Of a DNA stretch of 51,321 bases, positions 4,059-17,296 are shown in pieces. Positions within the stretch are counted from its first letter, which is position 1. Each line of letters opens with the position of its first letter. Origin of the DNA: Chryseobacterium gleum (GTDB lineage Bacteria > Bacteroidota > Bacteroidia > Flavobacteriales_D > Crocinitomicaceae); assembly GCA_945897755.1 (NCBI GenBank), contig CAMDGH010000008.1, forward strand, positions 1-51,321, in the 5' to 3' direction. The notes beneath the pieces are model-generated. The model had not been told where the DNA came from, searched no databases, and worked only from the letters and a program-made list of their open reading frames with translations. Position numbers and translations under genes: made by a program.

Positions 4059-6203
4059 TTAAACTAAATTTAACGTGATCTGACGTTTTCGTAAATCAAC
4101 ATCAGTTACTGTTACCTGAACTGAGTCTCCAAAATTATATTGTTTTTTAGTCCGCGTTCCCATTATACAGTAGTTGTCTTGGTCAAAGTAAAAGCGATCT
4201 CCAGGTATATCTTGAAGGGTAATCATTCCTTCGCAATGATTCTCTTTTAGTCTTACGAATAGTCCATAGTCGGAAATTCCAGATACTGTTCCTTCAAATG
4301 TTTCACCGATATGATCCTGCAAAAATAATGTCTGGAAATACTTTGTAGACTCCCGTTCAGCTTCTACCGCTTTACGTTCCATTCGAGAAATGTGTTTACA
4401 GGTTGCGGAAAGTTCGTTCGTATAAAGGTGTTTTTGTTGGGTGAGTTCTTCTAGTAAGATACGATGAACTACTAAATCTGCATACCTTCTAATTGGCGAT
4501 GTGAAATGTGTATAATGTTTAAATGCGAGACCAAAATGTCCGATGTTAGTTGTTTCATAGCTTGCTTTTGCCATTGAACGAATCGCCATGGTTTGAACAA
4601 AAGAATATTCATTTTCAGAGGCAATTTCTAAAAATAATTTATTGATTGATTTTGCAACATCTTCTATTCGATTATAAGAAATTTGATGTCCGAATTTTTC
4701 AATGAATAACTTAAAAGTTTCAATTTTTGCTATATCTGGTTTATCATGACAGCGGTATACAAATGGAATTACATCTTTCTTTTTACCTCTATTATCGATA
4801 AACAAGGCCACATGCTTATTAGCTAATAACATAAACTCCTCAATTAATTTATGTGCATCTTTTGATGTTTTTGTATATACATCTATTGGATTTCCTTCTT
4901 CATTTAATTGAAAACGTACTTCTTCAGATTCTATGTTTAAAGCGCCATTTTTTAAGCGGTCTTTCCGCATTATTTTTGCCAATTTATCTAAGATAAGCAC
5001 TTCTTGTTTAAAATCTCCGTCATTACCTTCAATGATTTCTTGGGCTTGTTCATACGAAAATCGTCTGTCAGAGTGTATCACAGTTTTTCCAAACCATTCT
5101 CCAACAACATCTCCTTGATCCGTCATTTCGAATACTGCAGCAAAACAAAATTTATCTTCGTTTGGCCTTAGAGAACATGCTATATTCGATAATTGTTCTG
5201 GAAGCATTGGAATAACTCGGTCAACTAAATAAACAGAGTTCCCTCTTTTAGCGGCTTCTTTGTCTAAGGCAGAATCTTTTTTTACATAATAACTTACATC
5301 AGCAATATGAACACCAACTTCGAAATTACCATTCTCTAAACGAAGAAAAGAAAGTGCATCATCGAAATCTTTTGCATCAATAGGGTCAATCGTAAAAGTG
5401 GTAATATTTCTAAAATCCCTTCTTGTTTTTATTTCATCTTGATTTAATTCAATGCTAACCCGTTCAGCTTCTTCAATTACTTCTTGAGGAAATTTGAATT
5501 CAATACCTTGTCCGCATAAAATTCCTATCATTTCTGTGTCGTTGGTAGATTTTTTCCCAAGCACTTCTGTTACTTCTCCGTAAGGAAATTCCGATGATTT
5601 AGGCCATACCGTAATCTTAGCAATCACTTTATCTTGGTCTTTAGCTCCGTTTAATTTCTCCTTTGGTAAAAAGAGTTGAATTCCGTTCTTCACATTATCA
5701 GGAAGTAATAAAGCAAAGGTATCACGCATCGAAATAGTGCCAACAAATTGAGTTCTTTCACGATTAATTACATTCAAGACCATACCTTCGCGTCTTCCTT
5801 TCCCCAGTTTCGTTAGAGCTACCTTCACAAAATCTCCATTCATAGCTTGATTAAGGTTGTGATTAGCTATAAATACATCTGTTTCTTTTTTCCCAGTCAA
5901 CAAAAACCCACTGCCTTTGGCAGTAATCTGAATTTCACCTTCTAGAAGTGTTTCCGATTCATCTCTAATAAATACCCCACTTGAGTTTTCTTTTAGGTAA
6001 CCTACTTTTGTTAGGTCTTTCATCGAAGTATACACTTGCTTGCGCAATTCATTTTCTTTTACGTTCAAAGCAGCACATATGTCTTTATGTGAGTAGGAAT
6101 GAATTGCATGTGAATCAAAAAACTTTCGAATAGAATGAGTTAGACTATTATTTGAATTTCCTGATTTTTCTTTCGAAAATGGTCTTTTTTTATTTCTTGA
6201 CAT
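4059..6203 (-). CDS. rnr: Ribonuclease R
   Basis: A 714-residue processive 3'-to-5' exoribonuclease that degrades structured RNA. In order: a basic N-terminus, a winged-helix domain (about 22-82), two cold-shock/OB domains (about 85-225), the RNB catalytic domain (about 255-590) and a C-terminal S1 domain (about 633-714). The metal-binding acidic cluster of RNB is present as D273, D279, D281 and D282 in TIDPIDAKDFDDA. The conserved HFTSPIRRYADLVVHR block is also intact. Length fits RNase R rather than the shorter RNase II. The Lys-rich tail usually found after S1 is missing; the protein ends at S1. Divergent from ferritin across a 366-base gap. Confidence 0.95.
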   Translation of the reverse strand: MSRNKKRPFSKEKSGNSNNSLTHSIRKFFDSHAIHSYSHKDICAALNVKENELRKQVYTSMKDLTKVGYLKENSSGVFIRDESETLLEGEIQITAKGSGFLLTGKKETDVFIANHNLNQAMNGDFVKVALTKLGKGRREGMVLNVINRERTQFVGTISMRDTFALLLPDNVKNGIQLFLPKEKLNGAKDQDKVIAKITVWPKSSEFPYGEVTEVLGKKSTNDTEMIGILCGQGIEFKFPQEVIEEAERVSIELNQDEIKTRRDFRNITTFTIDPIDAKDFDDALSFLRLENGNFEVGVHIADVSYYVKKDSALDKEAAKRGNSVYLVDRVIPMLPEQLSNIACSLRPNEDKFCFAAVFEMTDQGDVVGEWFGKTVIHSDRRFSYEQAQEIIEGNDGDFKQEVLILDKLAKIMRKDRLKNGALNIESEEVRFQLNEEGNPIDVYTKTSKDAHKLIEEFMLLANKHVALFIDNRGKKKDVIPFVYRCHDKPDIAKIETFKLFIEKFGHQISYNRIEDVAKSINKLFLEIASENEYSFVQTMAIRSMAKASYETTNIGHFGLAFKHYTHFTSPIRRYADLVVHRILLEELTQQKHLYTNELSATCKHISRMERKAVEAERESTKYFQTLFLQDHIGETFEGTVSGISDYGLFVRLKENHCEGMITLQDIPGDRFYFDQDNYCIMGTRTKKQYNFGDSVQVTVTDVDLRKRQITLNLV

Positions 6204-6569: not shown

Positions 6570-7097
6570 ATGAACACTCGCGTAGAAGCTGCATTAAATG
6601 ACCAAGTAATCAAAGAAAGTTATTCATCTCAATTTTATTTAGCAATGGCCTCATGGTCAGAAACTAAAGGGCTTAATGGGACTGCTAATTTTTTATATAC
6701 ACATTCCGACGAAGAACGGTTTCATATGTTAAAATTGATAAAGTTTATCAATGAACGAGGGGGGAAAGCAATCATACCTTCTGTTGAGTGTCCTCCAGTT
6801 GATTTTAATACAATAACAAATGTATTTGAAAATTTACTTAAACATGAATTAATGGTCACTGAAAGCATTAATAATTTAGTTGACATTTGTTTACAAGAAA
6901 AAGATTATACCACGCATAATTTTGTTCAATGGTATGTTTCAGAACAATTAGAAGAAGAGGCTTTAGCAAGGGAGTTATTGGATAAGATCCGTTTAATTGG
7001 AGGTGATAGTGGAGGCATTTATATTTTTGATAGAGATTTAGAGCAATTTCAAGCAAAAACCAATGGTGGAAAAACACAAAATCAATCGGGTAATTAA
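6570..7097 (+). CDS. ftnA: Non-haem bacterial ferritin
   Basis: A 175-residue four-helix-bundle iron-storage protein with ferroxidase activity, expected to form a 24-mer shell in the cytoplasm. The ferroxidase ligands are in place: E16 on the first helix, E49 and H52 (EERFH), E93 (KHELM), and the E125-Q126/E128-E129 cluster (SEQLEEE). Met and Tyr positions of the family N-terminus (SSQFYLAMASW) are present. There is no haem-binding Met typical of bacterioferritin. It is a single gene with a short leader. The tail after about residue 160 is polar and probably disordered. Confidence 0.95.
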   Translation: MNTRVEAALNDQVIKESYSSQFYLAMASWSETKGLNGTANFLYTHSDEERFHMLKLIKFINERGGKAIIPSVECPPVDFNTITNVFENLLKHELMVTESINNLVDICLQEKDYTTHNFVQWYVSEQLEEEALARELLDKIRLIGGDSGGIYIFDRDLEQFQAKTNGGKTQNQSGN

Positions 7098-9440: not shown

Positions 9441-10841
9441 ATGGTTTTTTCTAGCTTAACATTTTTATATTTCTTTTTGCCACTGAATTTGTTATTATAC
9501 TACATTTCAGGTAATCTTCTATATAGAAATATCTTACTGACTTTATTTTCGTTTGTTTTTTATGCTTGGGGTGAGCCTTTTTGGATTTTACTCTTGCTAT
9601 TTACTGCCATATTTGATTATGGAAATGGAATTTGGATAGAAAAATTAAAAAACAGAAACAATAGTAAATACATTGTTTTATTTTCAATTATTATAAATTT
9701 AGGTTTATTAATAGCATTTAAGTACAGTGGGTTTTTGTATGATAATATATCTTATTTTATTTCACTTCCTTTTGATAGGCCAGAAAATACCTTGCCTATT
9801 GGTATTTCATTTTATACATTTCAAACCATATCGTATGTAATAGACGTTCATAGAGGAGAAGTAAAAGCGCAACGAAATCCGATTAATTTTTTATTGTTTG
9901 TTAGCTTATATCATCAGCTAGTGGCTGGTCCAATTGTCCGTTACAAAACGATAGCTTCAGAGATTGATGGACGTAGTTTTTGTTGGTCTGATTTTAGCAA
10001 TGGTATTTCTCGTTTCTCTTTGGGATTATTTAAAAAAGTCATCATCGCAAATAACGCTGCAATATTTGTCGATCGCTATTTGATAGATCAACTCCATATC
10101 ATTACTGGACAAGAGGCTTGGTTTGGGATTGTTATGTTTTCCGTTCAAATTTATTTTGATTTTTCAGGTTATTCTGACATGGCTATTGGCCTTGGTAAAA
10201 TGTTTGGTTTTCATTACGATGAGAATTTTAAGAATCCATATGCTGCAAACTCAATAACTGATTTTTGGAGGCGTTGGCATATTTCTTTAGGAAGTTTTTT
10301 CAGAGACTATGTTTATATCCCTTTAGGAGGTAATCGTAAGAATGTATATCTTAATCTTATTATTGTATGGGGATTGACCGGTTTCTGGCATGGTGCAAGT
10401 TGGAATTACATGCTTTGGGGTCTTTATTTTTGTTTGTTATTGATTATTGAAAAAATATTTTTGCTCAAATTATACGATCGCATGCCACGTTTTGTGAGAC
10501 ATTTTACCACATTGTTTTTTATCATTTGGGGTTGGGCACTTTTTTATTTTGAGGACTTAAGCAAATTAGCCCTATTTACTAGTAAATTATTTTACTTTAG
10601 TGAACCGGAATCATTAACATTTCATTCAGATTTAATTCAAAATTTATTTTGGTTTATAATTGTTATTATTATGTGTATACCTTGGAATGAAATCACATTT
10701 ATTTCTAGAAAATATGACTCTATATCGCAAAAAAGTGTAGTTGTTGGACTCCAAATTATCATACAACTTATTGTATTGATCGTTTGTTCATCTTATTTGT
10801 TAGGGAATAGTTATAATCCTTTTCTTTATTTTAGATTTTAA
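9441..10841 (+). CDS. MBOAT O-acyltransferase, AlgI-like
   Basis: A 466-residue polytopic membrane protein of the MBOAT family that moves acyl (usually acetyl) groups across the membrane onto an exported polymer. About ten hydrophobic segments are visible. Family signatures are intact: RRWHISLGSFFRDYVYIPLG with H280, and GFWHGASWNYMLWG with the catalytic histidine H317. It is followed, with a one-base overlap of stop and start (TAATG), by a DHHW/AlgJ-like gene, the usual partner in alginate- or cellulose-type O-acetylation. No polymer synthase is in the window, so the acceptor is unknown. Confidence 0.93.
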   Translation: MVFSSLTFLYFFLPLNLLLYYISGNLLYRNILLTLFSFVFYAWGEPFWILLLLFTAIFDYGNGIWIEKLKNRNNSKYIVLFSIIINLGLLIAFKYSGFLYDNISYFISLPFDRPENTLPIGISFYTFQTISYVIDVHRGEVKAQRNPINFLLFVSLYHQLVAGPIVRYKTIASEIDGRSFCWSDFSNGISRFSLGLFKKVIIANNAAIFVDRYLIDQLHIITGQEAWFGIVMFSVQIYFDFSGYSDMAIGLGKMFGFHYDENFKNPYAANSITDFWRRWHISLGSFFRDYVYIPLGGNRKNVYLNLIIVWGLTGFWHGASWNYMLWGLYFCLLLIIEKIFLLKLYDRMPRFVRHFTTLFFIIWGWALFYFEDLSKLALFTSKLFYFSEPESLTFHSDLIQNLFWFIIVIIMCIPWNEITFISRKYDSISQKSVVVGLQIIIQLIVLIVCSSYLLGNSYNPFLYFRF

Positions 10842-12232
10842 TGATGCATAGTAAAAAACATATCGTTCATTTTTCACTGTTTGTGGTATACTTATTAGCT
10901 ACTATGTTATGTTTTATTTCTTCTAAAAAAGAATTGATATCTGATATTGAAAAACGTCCATTAGCTAAATTACCATCTATTTCAGTCTCGTCTATTTTTG
11001 ATGGTTCCTTAGCCAAAAACTATGAAGCTTATGTGGATGATCATTTTCCCATGAGAGAAGAATTAATTAACTTAGCATATGAAATTGACTCTTACAAAGG
11101 TATTCACGATCATAAAAATGCTAAAATTATTATTCCTTTCAAAAAAAGAGATGTAAAAAAAAATAGGACCAAAAAACAAATTAAAAATGATGAAGCAGCA
11201 AATGTGTTAGATGAAAAATATTTAGTCAATGCTGAATCAACAATGTCTAAGGGTTTGTTGGTTATTGGAGGAAGTTGTTATCAAATTTTTGGAGGGGAAA
11301 AAAGGTCAGCAGCTTTCTATGCTAAAATGCTTGATAAATACAGAGAAATATTACCTTCAAAGGTTAGATTGTTTAATTGCGTTGTACCTACAGCAGGTTC
11401 ATTTACTCACACTATTGATTATGATTATCTAAGAAAAAATGAGTATACTAATATTAAACAAATATACAATTTTACAACCAGTTCAATAATAAACATTAAT
11501 GCAGCAGAGGAAATTTTAAAACATCACAACGAGTATATTTATTTTAACACCGATCATCATTGGACTGGTTTGGGTGCTTATTATGCTTACGTTGCATTCT
11601 GTGCGAAAGCAGAAATACTTCCAATTCAATTAAAACAAATGAAGCGAAAAGTGAAACATCATTTTTTAGGCTCATTATATGCCTTAACTAGAGATCCTAT
11701 CGTTAAAAATAATCCAGATTCGGTTGTGTATTTTGTACCTCCCGTAAAAACAGAATTCATTGAGTATGCCGGAATTAATCAAGGATCTAAAATAAAAGGT
11801 GAACTCTTAGCTCGATATGCAACTGGTGTAAATAGTTACGGAGTTTTTCTTGGAGGAGATCATGCAATGGTTCATATAAAAACAAGTCTTAAAAATGGAA
11901 AACGGATTTTAGTAGTAAAAAATTCATTTGGAAACCCTTTCGCTACCTATCTTGTAAATAATTACGAGGAAGTGATCGTTATAGATTATAGATATTTTAG
12001 AAGAGGTTTATTGTCTGTTGTAAATGAATTCAAAATTAATGATGTACTTTTTTTACACAATGTTTTTTCAGCAAATACTGATTCACACACCAAACGTCAA
12101 ACCTTAATTTCTGATCCTATTCAAAGTGAAAAAACCAGTGAAAAAACCAGTGTAAAAATTAAATCTGATCCTGCTAAACATGACAGTTTATTTCAAATAA
12201 ATCCTATTGTTTCGCCCATTGATTCTCTTTAA
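10841..12232 (+). CDS. DHHW-family (AlgJ/AlgX-like) O-acetylation partner protein
   Basis: A 463-residue protein with an N-terminal membrane anchor (about 9-27) and an SGNH-hydrolase-like exoplasmic domain. The DHHW motif is D238-H239-H240-W241 (NTDHHWTGLGAYYAY), and a later block LVVKNSFGNPFATYL provides the conserved Ser region. The family pairs with MBOAT proteins and carries out or assists the periplasmic transfer of acetyl groups to sugar polymers. A Lys-rich, probably disordered insert lies at about 98-115. The C-terminus is a Ser/Lys/Asp-rich tail with a short direct repeat (AGTGAAAAAACC, 12125-12136 and 12137-12148). Translationally coupled to the AlgI-like gene. Confidence 0.85.
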   Translation: MMHSKKHIVHFSLFVVYLLATMLCFISSKKELISDIEKRPLAKLPSISVSSIFDGSLAKNYEAYVDDHFPMREELINLAYEIDSYKGIHDHKNAKIIIPFKKRDVKKNRTKKQIKNDEAANVLDEKYLVNAESTMSKGLLVIGGSCYQIFGGEKRSAAFYAKMLDKYREILPSKVRLFNCVVPTAGSFTHTIDYDYLRKNEYTNIKQIYNFTTSSIININAAEEILKHHNEYIYFNTDHHWTGLGAYYAYVAFCAKAEILPIQLKQMKRKVKHHFLGSLYALTRDPIVKNNPDSVVYFVPPVKTEFIEYAGINQGSKIKGELLARYATGVNSYGVFLGGDHAMVHIKTSLKNGKRILVVKNSFGNPFATYLVNNYEEVIVIDYRYFRRGLLSVVNEFKINDVLFLHNVFSANTDSHTKRQTLISDPIQSEKTSEKTSVKIKSDPAKHDSLFQINPIVSPIDSL

Positions 12233-12287: not shown

Positions 12288-15200
12288 ATGAATAAAAAAC
12301 CAGTTATATTGCTATTTTGCATGATTACACTTTTAGTGTCAAGTCAAAATAACTATCACTTTAATAATTATACTATAAACAATGGATTATCACAAAGTGT
12401 GGTTAATTCTTTAGTTCAAGATAATTCTGGCTCAATATGGATAGGGACTCAAGATGGCTTAAATCGTTTTGATGGACAATCATTCGAAATTTTCACATCT
12501 GACAATACTAAAGGCATACAAAGTATAGATTTTCTGTGCTCTATGAAATCTAAAAATGGAGATCTTTGGTTTGGAACATCTAATGGTTTAACTAAATATG
12601 ATCCTATTTTAGAACGATTTATCACATTTAATTATTCTTCACAATTTGCATTACAGGTCAGAACAATTGTTGAAGATAATGCTGGAAATGTTTGGATTGG
12701 AACAATTTCAAATGGCATCTATATTCTTAAAAAGAATGCAAAAAAAATCATAAAAGCATCAATAAATATTCCCTCTGAACGAATTTACAAGATTTCTTTT
12801 ATTTCATCAACAGAGCTTATTATTAGTACAGAAGATAAAGGAGTTTTTATTCATCATTTTCCAGAAAAAAACACGTATTCTATTGGTCTTAATGGTAAAA
12901 AAGGACGTTTTATTCGCTTAAATACAATTCAAAAATTTAATGGTAATGATTGGATTATTGGTTCAAGTCAAGGACTCTATTTGATGAATAAACTCACAAA
13001 AAATATTAAACCTTTTCTTACCAAATTAGATCGTAATTTTGGATATTTAGATATTAGCGATATAAGTATTATAAATGTTAATAAGTTCTTATTAACAACT
13101 AAATCAAATGGTTTATTTACAATTTTCATTTCATCTAGTGGAATTAATATTCATCATTCTACCCAAGATATTTTTCAGAAACAAGCCCTTTTGTATGATG
13201 CTTTAAATACAATGATTAGAGATGAAAACGGAACTTTTTGGATAGGTTCTCAACGTGGTTTGAGTAGTTTTGACCCTTTAAATCAAGGCTTTCTTGGTGT
13301 AGGACCAACAGGTGATCTTACAAAGGGTATTCCTACTCCAAGTGTCTGGAGTTTTTCAGAAGATAAGTCAGGAAGATATTTGTTTATCGGTTTAGAAAGC
13401 GCTGTCTCTAGAATAGATAAGAAAACCGGCATGTTTATTCCATTTTTCAAACCGAAAGAATTAGATAATAGTTCATTAACTTCTAATATTTTAACGAGTT
13501 ACGTGATTAGTCCGTCTGATATTCTTGTTGGTGCATCGGATGGTTTATTTTTATTAAATATTTCATCAAAAAATGATTATACGTTCAAAAAAATTAAGTT
13601 CAAAAATTTAAATAATCCTTCAAATTACAGTCGTGTATACGATATAGAACATTGGAAAGACTCTCGTTATTTTATTTCTACTAAAGGGGGAGTTCTTTTA
13701 TTTGATAAGCAGACTAGTAAAGTAACTGTTTTTGAGCACGATGATAGTAATCCATCAATGTCTCTTGGTAAAGGTGTGTGTAGGATGATTTACAAAGATT
13801 TGTCTGGTAAAATTTGGTTTAGTTCAAGTAGTGGAGGATTGTATCAATTTTCCGATAAAAAGGAGTTGAAAATTATTCCGTATGAGTTTAATTATCAAAT
13901 AGCTAAGCTTTCAAAGGAAAATATATCCAACATGGTACAAACGGATGATGAAACTTTTTGGCTAGCTACATTGGGATCGGGTATGATTAAATGGAATTCT
14001 AAAATAGGGAAAGGCTCATTAATTAACAAGAAAACAGGCTTACCCAATAATGTAGTTTATGGGATTTTGCAAGAAAGAGATAATTTATGGCTTAGTACAA
14101 ATAAAGGCTTGGCTAAATACGCTATCTCATCGAAAAAAATAACAAATTTTACAGAAAAAGATGGATTAATGTCTAATGAATTTAATCAAGGGGCTTTTTT
14201 AAAGTCCAAAAATGGTCAATTGTATTTTGGGGGTATTTATGGATATAATTATTTTGATCCCCAAAAATTATCAATTAAAGAAGGGGCCATTAATGTTCGA
14301 CTTACGAAAATAAGGTTTGATAAAAATTGGTTAAAACCAGACCCTTCTTCATTGTTGCCGATTTCGATTTCTTTGACAAAACACATACTATTACCATATA
14401 AAAAAAGAAGTATTACCTTAAAATTTATGGCCACAGAGATGAGTAATCCAAGTCTCATCTCATACAAATATATTCTTGAAGGATCTGAAGATGGAGAAGT
14501 ATTTATTGGATCAACAAATCAAATTCACTTAAATTCCATTCAGCCAGGGGAATATGTTTTGAAAATCTATGCTCGAATAGGGGATGGAAAATGGGGTAAT
14601 ACTCCCTGTAAATTAACTATAATTGTGAAAGCTCCTTATTGGAAAACAATTTGGTTCTGGATTGTTGTGTCAATATTTATTGCAGGTTTGGCCTTATTTT
14701 ATTTTAAAAATAAAATTAAAATCGAACGTAAACAACAGCTTCGGTTAGAACAAAAAATAACTGAACGAACAAAAGAAATTCGTGAACAAAACATCAAAAT
14801 AGAAAAACAGAAGCGCACAATTGAAGAAAAGAAAAATCACTTAGAAGAACAAAAATTTTTACTGGAGATAGAAAAAGAAAAAACAGAAAATGTGTTAAAA
14901 AATATTTTACCTGTATCTATTTATGAAGAAATAAAAGAAACCGGAAAGGCAAGCGCGAGAGCTTATAGTCGGGTATCTGTATTGTTTACTGATTTTGTAG
15001 GTTTTACAAAAATAGCAGAAACGATGAAACCCTCTGAATTAGTTCGCAATTTAGATGTTTATTTTAGAAAATTTGATGAAATAATTGTTCGAAATAATCT
15101 TGAAAAAATTAAAACAATTGGTGATGCCTATATGTGTGCTGGGGGTGTTCCAAAAAGAAATAAAACGAATCCAATTGATGCTTGTTTAGCGGCTCTAGAA

Positions 15201-16187
15201 ATCCAATTCGTAACGAAAGAAATGAGTGAATCAGCAGAACAAGCTGGAAAAGCGATCTGGAAGTTGCGCTTAGGTATTAATACGGGAGAAGTTACTGCAG
15301 GTGTAATAGGAACAGAAAAACTTGCATATGATATTTGGGGATCAACAGTGAATCAAGCACAGCGTATGGAAATGCTTGGAGAATCTGGTAAAGTAACAAT
15401 TTCTGGCCATACTTTTAAATTTATTGAACCTTATTTTGATTGTACATTTAGAGGTAAAGTAAAAACTAAAAGCCAGGGTTTAATTGACATGTATACTGTG
15501 GATGGTATTAAAGTCGAACTTTCAATTGATGGTTTAGGGGTCTATCCGAATGAGCGTTTTCATGAAATTTTAAATCTTCATACTTATAGTAGTATCAATT
15601 ATTACCTCGCGGAACACCATATTATGAAATTATTGGAAGAAAAGTTATCTCCAAAATTGCATTACCATAGTTTAATTCACACGAAGGATGTCTGTAAATC
15701 CATTGAACGGATTGCTTTGTTGGAGGGAATCACTGATGAAGGACTTTTTTTACTTAAATCTGCAGCTACCTATCACGATGCAGGATTTATTGAAGCTTAT
15801 GATAACAATGAGCATATAGGAGCTAAAATGGCAGAAAATAGTTTACCCGAATTTGGATATAAAAAAGAACATATTGATCAAATTAAAGATTTAATTTTTG
15901 TTACTGCAATTCCTCATAATCCAACAAATAAACTAGAGGAAATTATCTGTGATGCAGATTTAGACTACTTAGGAAGGGATGATTTTCACGAAATTGCGGA
16001 TAAACTTCGGTTAGAATTAAAAGAATACGGTAAAATTGATAGTGATCGTCAATGGGATGAAATACAAGTTGCTTTTTTAACTAATCATAGGTATTTTACT
16101 AAAACAGCAATCGATTCCAGAAAATTCAAGAAAGAACAAAATTTAGAGGATATTAAACAACGTTTAATTAAAAATCAATATGATTAA
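12288..16187 (+). CDS. Propeller sensor - adenylyl cyclase - HD phosphohydrolase fusion
   Basis: 1299 residues. A signal sequence (about 1-19) is followed by a periplasmic Reg_prop propeller to about residue 690, with blades ending in motifs such as IWIGTQDGLNRFD, LWFGTSNGLTKYD, FWIGSQRGLSSFD and LWLSTNKGLAKY. Next come a Y_Y_Y domain (about 700-780), one membrane helix (about 788-806), a coiled coil (to about 880), a class III cyclase domain (about 895-1075), and an HD domain (about 1110-1260). Cyclase residues are complete: metal D902 and D946, adenine-selecting K942 and D1015, and transition-state N1022 and R1026, so ATP is the expected substrate. HD ligands visible: H1131, H1163-D1164, D1222 and D1224. 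The protein is built like the sensory half of hybrid two-component regulators, but with a cAMP output instead of a kinase. It lies 55 bases after the DHHW gene, possibly in the same transcript. Confidence 0.9.
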   Translation: MNKKPVILLFCMITLLVSSQNNYHFNNYTINNGLSQSVVNSLVQDNSGSIWIGTQDGLNRFDGQSFEIFTSDNTKGIQSIDFLCSMKSKNGDLWFGTSNGLTKYDPILERFITFNYSSQFALQVRTIVEDNAGNVWIGTISNGIYILKKNAKKIIKASINIPSERIYKISFISSTELIISTEDKGVFIHHFPEKNTYSIGLNGKKGRFIRLNTIQKFNGNDWIIGSSQGLYLMNKLTKNIKPFLTKLDRNFGYLDISDISIINVNKFLLTTKSNGLFTIFISSSGINIHHSTQDIFQKQALLYDALNTMIRDENGTFWIGSQRGLSSFDPLNQGFLGVGPTGDLTKGIPTPSVWSFSEDKSGRYLFIGLESAVSRIDKKTGMFIPFFKPKELDNSSLTSNILTSYVISPSDILVGASDGLFLLNISSKNDYTFKKIKFKNLNNPSNYSRVYDIEHWKDSRYFISTKGGVLLFDKQTSKVTVFEHDDSNPSMSLGKGVCRMIYKDLSGKIWFSSSSGGLYQFSDKKELKIIPYEFNYQIAKLSKENISNMVQTDDETFWLATLGSGMIKWNSKIGKGSLINKKTGLPNNVVYGILQERDNLWLSTNKGLAKYAISSKKITNFTEKDGLMSNEFNQGAFLKSKNGQLYFGGIYGYNYFDPQKLSIKEGAINVRLTKIRFDKNWLKPDPSSLLPISISLTKHILLPYKKRSITLKFMATEMSNPSLISYKYILEGSEDGEVFIGSTNQIHLNSIQPGEYVLKIYARIGDGKWGNTPCKLTIIVKAPYWKTIWFWIVVSIFIAGLALFYFKNKIKIERKQQLRLEQKITERTKEIREQNIKIEKQKRTIEEKKNHLEEQKFLLEIEKEKTENVLKNILPVSIYEEIKETGKASARAYSRVSVLFTDFVGFTKIAETMKPSELVRNLDVYFRKFDEIIVRNNLEKIKTIGDAYMCAGGVPKRNKTNPIDACLAALEIQFVTKEMSESAEQAGKAIWKLRLGINTGEVTAGVIGTEKLAYDIWGSTVNQAQRMEMLGESGKVTISGHTFKFIEPYFDCTFRGKVKTKSQGLIDMYTVDGIKVELSIDGLGVYPNERFHEILNLHTYSSINYYLAEHHIMKLLEEKLSPKLHYHSLIHTKDVCKSIERIALLEGITDEGLFLLKSAATYHDAGFIEAYDNNEHIGAKMAENSLPEFGYKKEHIDQIKDLIFVTAIPHNPTNKLEEIICDADLDYLGRDDFHEIADKLRLELKEYGKIDSDRQWDEIQVAFLTNHRYFTKTAIDSRKFKKEQNLEDIKQRLIKNQYD

Positions 16188-16486: not shown

Positions 16487-17296
16487 TTAATTGAACAAAC
16501 TTGAAATTGTTTTTGTTGGATTTAAAATTAGAATAGGAATATTCGCATCGTTTGTAATTAAATATTCTTCAGGTTTGGTTGATAAACCCGGAATTATGCT
16601 ATTTCCTATTAAATTCATAATCGCAATCAAGTCTGCGTTTACAGTTTGAGCATATTTCAAAACTTCTTTTTCGAAAGAAGTTGACTTTAAAGTAGTAACA
16701 TCAAAATTAATATTTCTTTCTTCAAAGAATTTTCTCGCAAACTTTATATTAACAAGGATTTTTCTTTTAAAATAGTCGTCTTTTTCGTCTGGAAGTACGA
16801 TATGAACATGAGATTTGAAATAGGTTGCAATATTAGCAACGTATCCTAATTTTTGTTTTGTTTCTACATTTAAATCTAGGGGCACTACAATTGAATCGTA
16901 GCCGTTTAGACCGATTTTCTTGTCCTGTACTACTACAAATGGAACTAGAGAGCCTGTGATTACCTTCATTGCATTGCTTCCAGCAATTTTTTGCCAACCT
17001 GATATGCCGTGTGTACCCATAAATATCAACTCAGCGTGGTGTTCTGACGCAAATTCTCCGATTTCTTCAAAAATGCTACCCACTCTAACAGATGAAACAA
17101 CTTCTACAGTGGTAGTAATCGAACTTAAAACAGCAGTTAATTTTTGTTCAGCAGCTTCTATTTCCTTCGTTTTGCTTACTAGGTGTAAAACATAAACGCG
17201 CGCGTCAACTAATTGTGCAGCTGTTAAAGCATGATCAAGTGCATTATCAGCAACAGGTGTAAAATCATAAGGAACAATAAAAACTTTGTGAATCAT
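16487..17296 (-). CDS. Universal stress protein (tandem UspA domains)
   Basis: A 269-residue cytoplasmic protein with two UspA-type domains in tandem (about 1-125 and 132-262). Domain 1 begins with the family strand HKVFIVPYDFTP and carries the ATP-binding loop pattern GTHGISGWQK...GSNAMKVI (G-x2-G, then G-S), so it probably binds ATP. Domain 2 (DSIVVPLDLNVETKQKL) lacks an intact G-x2-G-x9-G-S/T loop and looks non-binding. This one-good, one-bad layout is common for tandem Usp proteins. It has its own promoter-like box and terminator, so it is likely a single-gene unit. The exact role is not visible. Confidence 0.9.
   Translation of the reverse strand: MIHKVFIVPYDFTPVADNALDHALTAAQLVDARVYVLHLVSKTKEIEAAEQKLTAVLSSITTTVEVVSSVRVGSIFEEIGEFASEHHAELIFMGTHGISGWQKIAGSNAMKVITGSLVPFVVVQDKKIGLNGYDSIVVPLDLNVETKQKLGYVANIATYFKSHVHIVLPDEKDDYFKRKILVNIKFARKFFEERNINFDVTTLKSTSFEKEVLKYAQTVNADLIAIMNLIGNSIIPGLSTKPEEYLITNDANIPILILNPTKTISSLFN

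Follow-up and report, generated by a model that had tools for sequence, protein, structure and literature searches.

A sensor-linked class III cyclase with a C-terminal HD domain in Flavobacteriales, a possible one-protein cAMP switch

A contig of 51,321 nucleotides from a Crocinitomicaceae genome (the window) contains one gene in which a periplasmic sensor, a class III cyclase and an HD domain are joined on a single chain. The product is very probably a sensor-regulated adenylyl cyclase. There is about an even chance that the whole protein is a transmembrane cAMP switch, in which the HD domain would hydrolyse the cyclase's own product. Since both catalytic sets are intact and independent evidence links the HD family to class III cyclases in function, a protein that both makes and breaks its messenger is the best reading of the data.

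Architecture, spread and surroundings of the gene

The gene is an ATG-started open reading frame with a product of 1299 aa. There is no competing frame on the minus strand over 12288-16187, which has stops throughout. Its features are as follows.

12288..16187, + strand: entire sensor-cyclase-HD gene, 1299 aa, conserved over its full length among relatives
12288..12344, + strand: putative signal peptide, residues 1-19, preceding 12345; by eye
12345..14387, + strand: periplasmic Reg_prop beta-propeller, about residues 20-700; Reg_prop 78.4 bits, PDB 4a2l and 3v9f
14442..14630, + strand: Y_Y_Y domain, residues 719-781; PF07495, 36.5 bits, above the cut-off
14649..14708, + strand: single transmembrane (TM) helix, about residues 788-807; by eye, kept in propeller-less relatives
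14715..14942, + strand: coiled coil or signalling-helix-like linker, about residues 810-885; by eye, present in the short forms too
14955..15503, + strand: class III cyclase catalytic domain, residues 890-1072; PF00211, E 3e-44
15600..16157, + strand: HD domain, about residues 1105-1290; from Pfam matches of relatives, predicted fold and conserved residues

The original prediction had proposed this same chain of propeller, Y_Y_Y domain, one TM helix, coiled coil, cyclase and HD domain, and it is borne out by Pfam (for the HD domain, through relatives) and, for the helix and the coil, by eye; all eleven residues that it named are where it placed them. Reg_prop repeats and a Y_Y_Y domain lie ahead of one TM helix, which is the layout of Reg_prop/Y_Y_Y receptors. 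Among known structures, the sensor half comes closest to ectodomains of hybrid sensors of the Bacteroides type (4a2l, E 1e-64; 3v9f, 4e-56). No HisKA, HATPase or Response_reg domain was found by Pfam in the 1299-aa protein, which sets it apart from the hybrid two-component regulators themselves.

The cyclase domain has a Guanylate_cyc match of 151 bits over residues 890-1072 and a complete catalytic set, as expected of a class III adenylyl cyclase. D902 and D946 are the metal ligands, K942 and D1015 the adenine pair, and N1022 and R1026 the transition-state pair. K942, D946, D1015 and N1022 are invariant in the 117 aligned fused proteins, D902 is present in 116 with one gap, and R1026 in 111. 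A Lys/Asp pair is an established indicator of ATP in class III cyclases, and thus ATP is the likely substrate; adenylyl specificity is what the K942/D1015 pair would predict. No other class III cyclase was found in the genome.

How common the combination of sensor, cyclase and HD domain might be had been posed as a check on the prediction. Within its lineage it is ordinary, with an HD homologue in 209/299 genomes and 56/65 genera of the order. Relatives include Crocinitomicaceae, Fluviicola, Brumimicrobium and Crocinitomix. The strong HD matches are mostly on frames of ~1300 aa, with a minority of ~525-570 aa. The short forms (~530 aa) retain the TM helix, coiled coil, cyclase and HD domain, and the propeller is missing. 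Propeller-less forms of ~520-545 aa (L042-L046, L088-L106) are scattered within one genus, which suggests repeated loss or gain of the sensor. The HD domain is as conserved as the cyclase (median identity 66% vs 65%), and the propeller drifts among relatives (25-54% identity). Contigs of metagenome-assembled genomes named Chitinophaga pinensis, Chryseobacterium gleum, Candidatus Planktophila or Kuenenia bear loci of the Crocinitomicaceae type, and these names look unreliable.

The genes around the cyclase-HD gene bear on the nature of the ligand.

4059..6203, - strand: RNase R, PF00773; conserved divergent outer neighbour
6570..7097, + strand: ferritin, PF00210, 7e-40; adjoins the cyclase gene on its upstream side in relatives but not here
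9441..12232, + strand: MBOAT O-acyltransferase and DHHW/AlgX-like pair; beside the cyclase gene in none of 99 other loci
16487..17296, - strand: universal stress protein, PF00582; conserved downstream neighbour

It had been suggested from the O-acyltransferase pair that the sensor responds to glycan fragments. This idea is without comparative support, since MBOAT, DHHW and the DEAD-box helicase are beside the cyclase-HD gene in 0/99 relatives' loci, some of which represent one genome taken from two collections; what is conserved is ferritin. In the window the helicase, the MBOAT and DHHW genes and one further open reading frame lie between ferritin and the cyclase gene, and the O-acyltransferase pair is a lineage-specific insertion at this point. 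In relatives ferritin is on the same strand as the cyclase-HD gene, usually <150 bp upstream, and among the 91 loci with enough upstream sequence it is <400 bp upstream in 45. RNase R lies beyond ferritin, and the universal stress protein is downstream of the cyclase-HD gene. An earlier guess from length and synteny that the upstream gene encodes a pyrophosphatase was dropped when Pfam identified ferritin and RNase R. The position of ferritin directly upstream in many relatives (loci L032-L131) raises a possible iron or oxidative-stress connection.

The HD domain and its likeness to phosphodiesterases

Taken alone, the HD part of the protein gave no match worth naming against Pfam, NCBIfam and PDB sequences. 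Among 18 close relatives, 11 match PF01966, the best at 5e-11, and a profile search gave a weak match to the HD hydrolase structure 2pq7 (E 0.0017). The AlphaFold model has a mean pLDDT of 96.4 and is confidently an HD fold. H1127, H1131, H1163, D1164, E1175, D1222 and D1224 are invariant in the 117 fused proteins; the invariant H...HD...D ligands and the helical fold of the model are those of the HD superfamily. The predicted fold and metal residues are therefore real, but the domain is more distant from known HD domains than had been implied. An unrelated fold, which had been named among the outcomes that would overturn the prediction, is not what the PF01966 matches and the model reveal. 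On sequence grounds the domain is likely to be catalytically competent.

When the model was compared with known structures by Foldseek, HD hydrolases (2pq7, YpgQ) were level with cyclic-nucleotide phosphodiesterases (PDEs). With VIA-align, catalytic domains of mammalian PDEs took every one of the fifty top places (Z 17.5 to 16.3), headed by PDE10A (Z 17.5, rmsd 3.0, 201 aligned), with about 200 of 225 residues aligned across the top entries. The PDE matches are taken as suggestive only because the control, the HD domain of RNase Y, gave a poor model (pLDDT 58), which leaves the PDE-likeness of the fold uncalibrated.

The likeness extends to part of the PDE sequence. The first PDE motif, H-x3-H-x2-D-V, is present, with H1127 and H1131 in 117/117 fused proteins, V1135 in 115/115 and D1134 in 112/115. 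The motif YH-x3-H-x2-DV compares with YHNNIHAADV in PDE4D and largely, although not fully, with YHNWKHAVTV in PDE10A. By eye, Q1260-x-x-F1263 resembles the PDE motif Q-x-G-F. The PDE signature HDxxH is absent, however, the sequence at 1163-1167 being HDAGF compared to HDVDH in PDE4D and HDLDH in PDE10A. In hhalign the HD domain and PDEs gave a probability of 5.6%, and the first motif alone was aligned with any confidence. Pfam found no PDEase_I (PF00233) in the 1299-aa protein, and the best score in a relative (E 0.0015, 18.7 bits) was below the cut-off of 24.8. The domain is thus not a class I PDE by membership, but it may work like one. There is no GYP motif in the domain, which places it outside the HD-GYP c-di-GMP PDEs.

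Association of the HD family with cyclases, and alternative readings

Members of the HD family were found in 150 of 392 genomes of Bacteroidota. They stand alone (~200 aa) or are joined to YitT, to PycTM, the TM domain of Pycsar effectors, or to a TIR-like/TPR protein; one is the end of a kinase-AAA-GAF-cyclase chain of 1865 aa. In the TIR-like genes, L164 2887-5466 (+) and L166 3599-6241 (-), the product begins with a part that looks TIR-like by eye, continues with TPR and ends in an HD domain of the same family; the L166 gene and a cyclase gene lie tail to tail. The HD-PycTM proteins are found at L170, L173, L174 and L177, with PycTM scanned in L170, L173 and L177. In two genomes (G466, G610) of the genus that includes L173 and L174, no class III cyclase was found. 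A 2015 treatment of nucleotide-centred systems by Burroughs reportedly discusses HD and PycTM.

Class III cyclases were located in 62 HD-bearing genomes of the phylum. An unfused HD gene is within 5 kb of a class III cyclase at 13 of 61 loci, in 13 genomes of seven families, against an expectation of 0.46, which was derived from cyclase number and genome size and ignores kinship within families. In three of these the genes are in tandem on the same strand: cyclase-cyclase-HD with gaps of 8 and 39 bp (L182), cyclase-HD (L183), and a receiver-cyclase followed after about 10 bp by HD-YitT (L184). In a phylogenetic tree the Flavobacteriales fusions form one clade (100/99), which includes a contig-edge fragment (L116). 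A second, independent cyclase-HD fusion is present in genome G446 (L167/L145), and the PycTM forms are a separate deep clade. The protein of the second fusion (L167, 4163-9760, -) is the 1865-aa chain of protein kinase, AAA, GAF, class III cyclase and HD domains. The cyclase and the HD domain are functionally linked. That they have been joined repeatedly is the best argument for both acting on the same signal, and it favors hydrolysis of the cyclase's product by the HD domain, a proposal with roughly equal chances of being right or wrong.

The HD domain might instead be an active phosphohydrolase acting on another nucleotide (dNTP, ppGpp, or a linear NMP or NTP), with cross-talk to cAMP signalling. 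The equally good Foldseek matches to 2pq7 and YpgQ, solved with ADP, are consistent with this, as are the family's PycTM and YitT partners and its presence in genomes where no class III cyclases were found. The repeated operon and fusion linkage to class III cyclases speaks against it, as do the PDE-type H-x3-H pair and the whole-domain match to PDEs, and this alternative is considered unlikely.

A clade-specific substitution bears on a second alternative. Residue 1174, which in our reading of the alignment with 2pq7 matches a His of the HD pocket, is Asn in 116/117 fused proteins of the Flavobacteriales clade. The independent fusion has His here, as do those unfused relatives that were examined. 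The change suggests altered chemistry or specificity of the HD domain in the fused clade. It could also mean that the domain, as a pseudo-enzyme or a very slow enzyme, has taken on a regulatory role, in which it would bind cAMP or some other nucleotide as a sensor and adjust the cyclase in cis. The remaining pocket is strictly conserved, and Q1260 is invariant in the fused forms, as a regulatory role would allow; other forms without PycTM often have it too, and most PycTM forms have Asn instead. All canonical metal ligands are invariant, however, which is unusual for a dead enzyme, and a purely regulatory HD domain is judged improbable.

Bacteria are usually held to degrade cAMP through CpdA and CpdB. 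Among the four metallophosphatases of this genome none resembling CpdA was seen by eye. Nor was a protein with a cNMP-binding domain found in its 94% complete assembly; such a protein is present in 99 of 100 genomes of the family, and its absence here reflects either a gap in the assembly or a recent loss. Most of the CRP/FNR-like regulators of the family (L188-L196) have Cys pairs, and by eye they seem to have Lys or His in place of the canonical Arg of the CRP phosphate cassette; they are weak candidates for cAMP receptors. A different product of the cyclase, either cGMP or a pyrimidine cNMP, would take the pair out of cAMP signalling. This is very improbable: PycTM partners other HD-family members and a cNMP-binding protein was not found in this genome, but the adenine-selecting K942/D1015 pair is invariant and, among PDB sequences, the cyclase domain matches adenylyl cyclases best.

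Proposed mechanism and known systems

We infer HD catalysis, cAMP as the HD substrate, and the regulatory logic of the switch. A ligand would be received by the periplasmic propeller/Y_Y_Y sensor, which is of the hybrid-two-component type and probably dimeric, and the signal would pass through the one TM helix and the coiled coil to the cyclase. The homodimeric class III adenylyl cyclase would then convert ATP to cAMP, which the C-terminal HD domain, acting as a metal-dependent phosphodiesterase, would hydrolyze. Local turnover of cAMP could give a fast-reset or self-limiting signal. The self-limiting switch put forward in the original prediction gains from the intact cyclase and HD metal residues in ~117 fused proteins and from the HD-cyclase linkage; its glycan ligand does not.

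No published description of the sensor-cyclase-HD architecture was found in the open-access literature. The closest precedent is CAPE, the combined adenylyl cyclase with phosphodiesterase of Marchantia polymorpha (PMC5159850, PMC8115329), of which this protein looks like a bacterial counterpart. In both, a class III adenylyl cyclase shares its chain with a domain of the HD superfamily, a PDE in CAPE and a putative one here. The H-x3-H pair H199 and H203 is essential for hydrolysis in the plant enzyme (PMC5159850) and corresponds by motif to H1127/H1131. In contrast, CAPE is from a plant, its PDE, a genuine class I enzyme, occupies the N-terminal end, and it lacks the propeller sensor and the single-TM receptor layout. 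The bacterial protein is not itself a CAPE, its HD domain being outside class I and its domain order reversed, and homology of the fusions is not implied because the bacterial HD domain is only distantly similar.

Three bacterial groups share parts of the design. The Bacteroides hybrid two-component sensors (4a2l, 3v9f) have the same periplasmic propeller, Y_Y_Y domain, one TM helix and coiled coil, but their output is a histidine kinase, receiver and DNA-binding domain in place of the cyclase-HD pair. Bacterial receptor class III adenylyl cyclases (7yz9, 4p2f; 7TMR-DISM, e.g. L169) resemble it in the cyclase, the coiled-coil linker and the expected homodimer, and differ in having other sensors and no fused HD domain. 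The HD-PycTM proteins of Bacteroidota (PF01966 + PF18967; L170, L173, L177) have a homologous HD domain, but with a PycTM partner, a deep separate clade, His at 1174 and mostly Asn at 1260; class III cyclases were sometimes not found in their genomes.

The fullest reading, held tentatively and at somewhat less than an even chance, is of a widespread bacterial receptor that makes and destroys cAMP by means of a Bacteroidota family of HD phosphodiesterases, in parallel with CAPE, and in which the fused clade has been re-tuned by the His-to-Asn change. To our knowledge, cAMP phosphodiesterase activity is newly proposed for this HD family, and it shares the tentative standing of that reading. Its links to class III cyclases, through fusion, shared operons and neighborhood, make the family a direct candidate for the removal of cAMP in Bacteroidota. 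If this is true, an environmental sensor of the kinase type has been re-wired to a second messenger.
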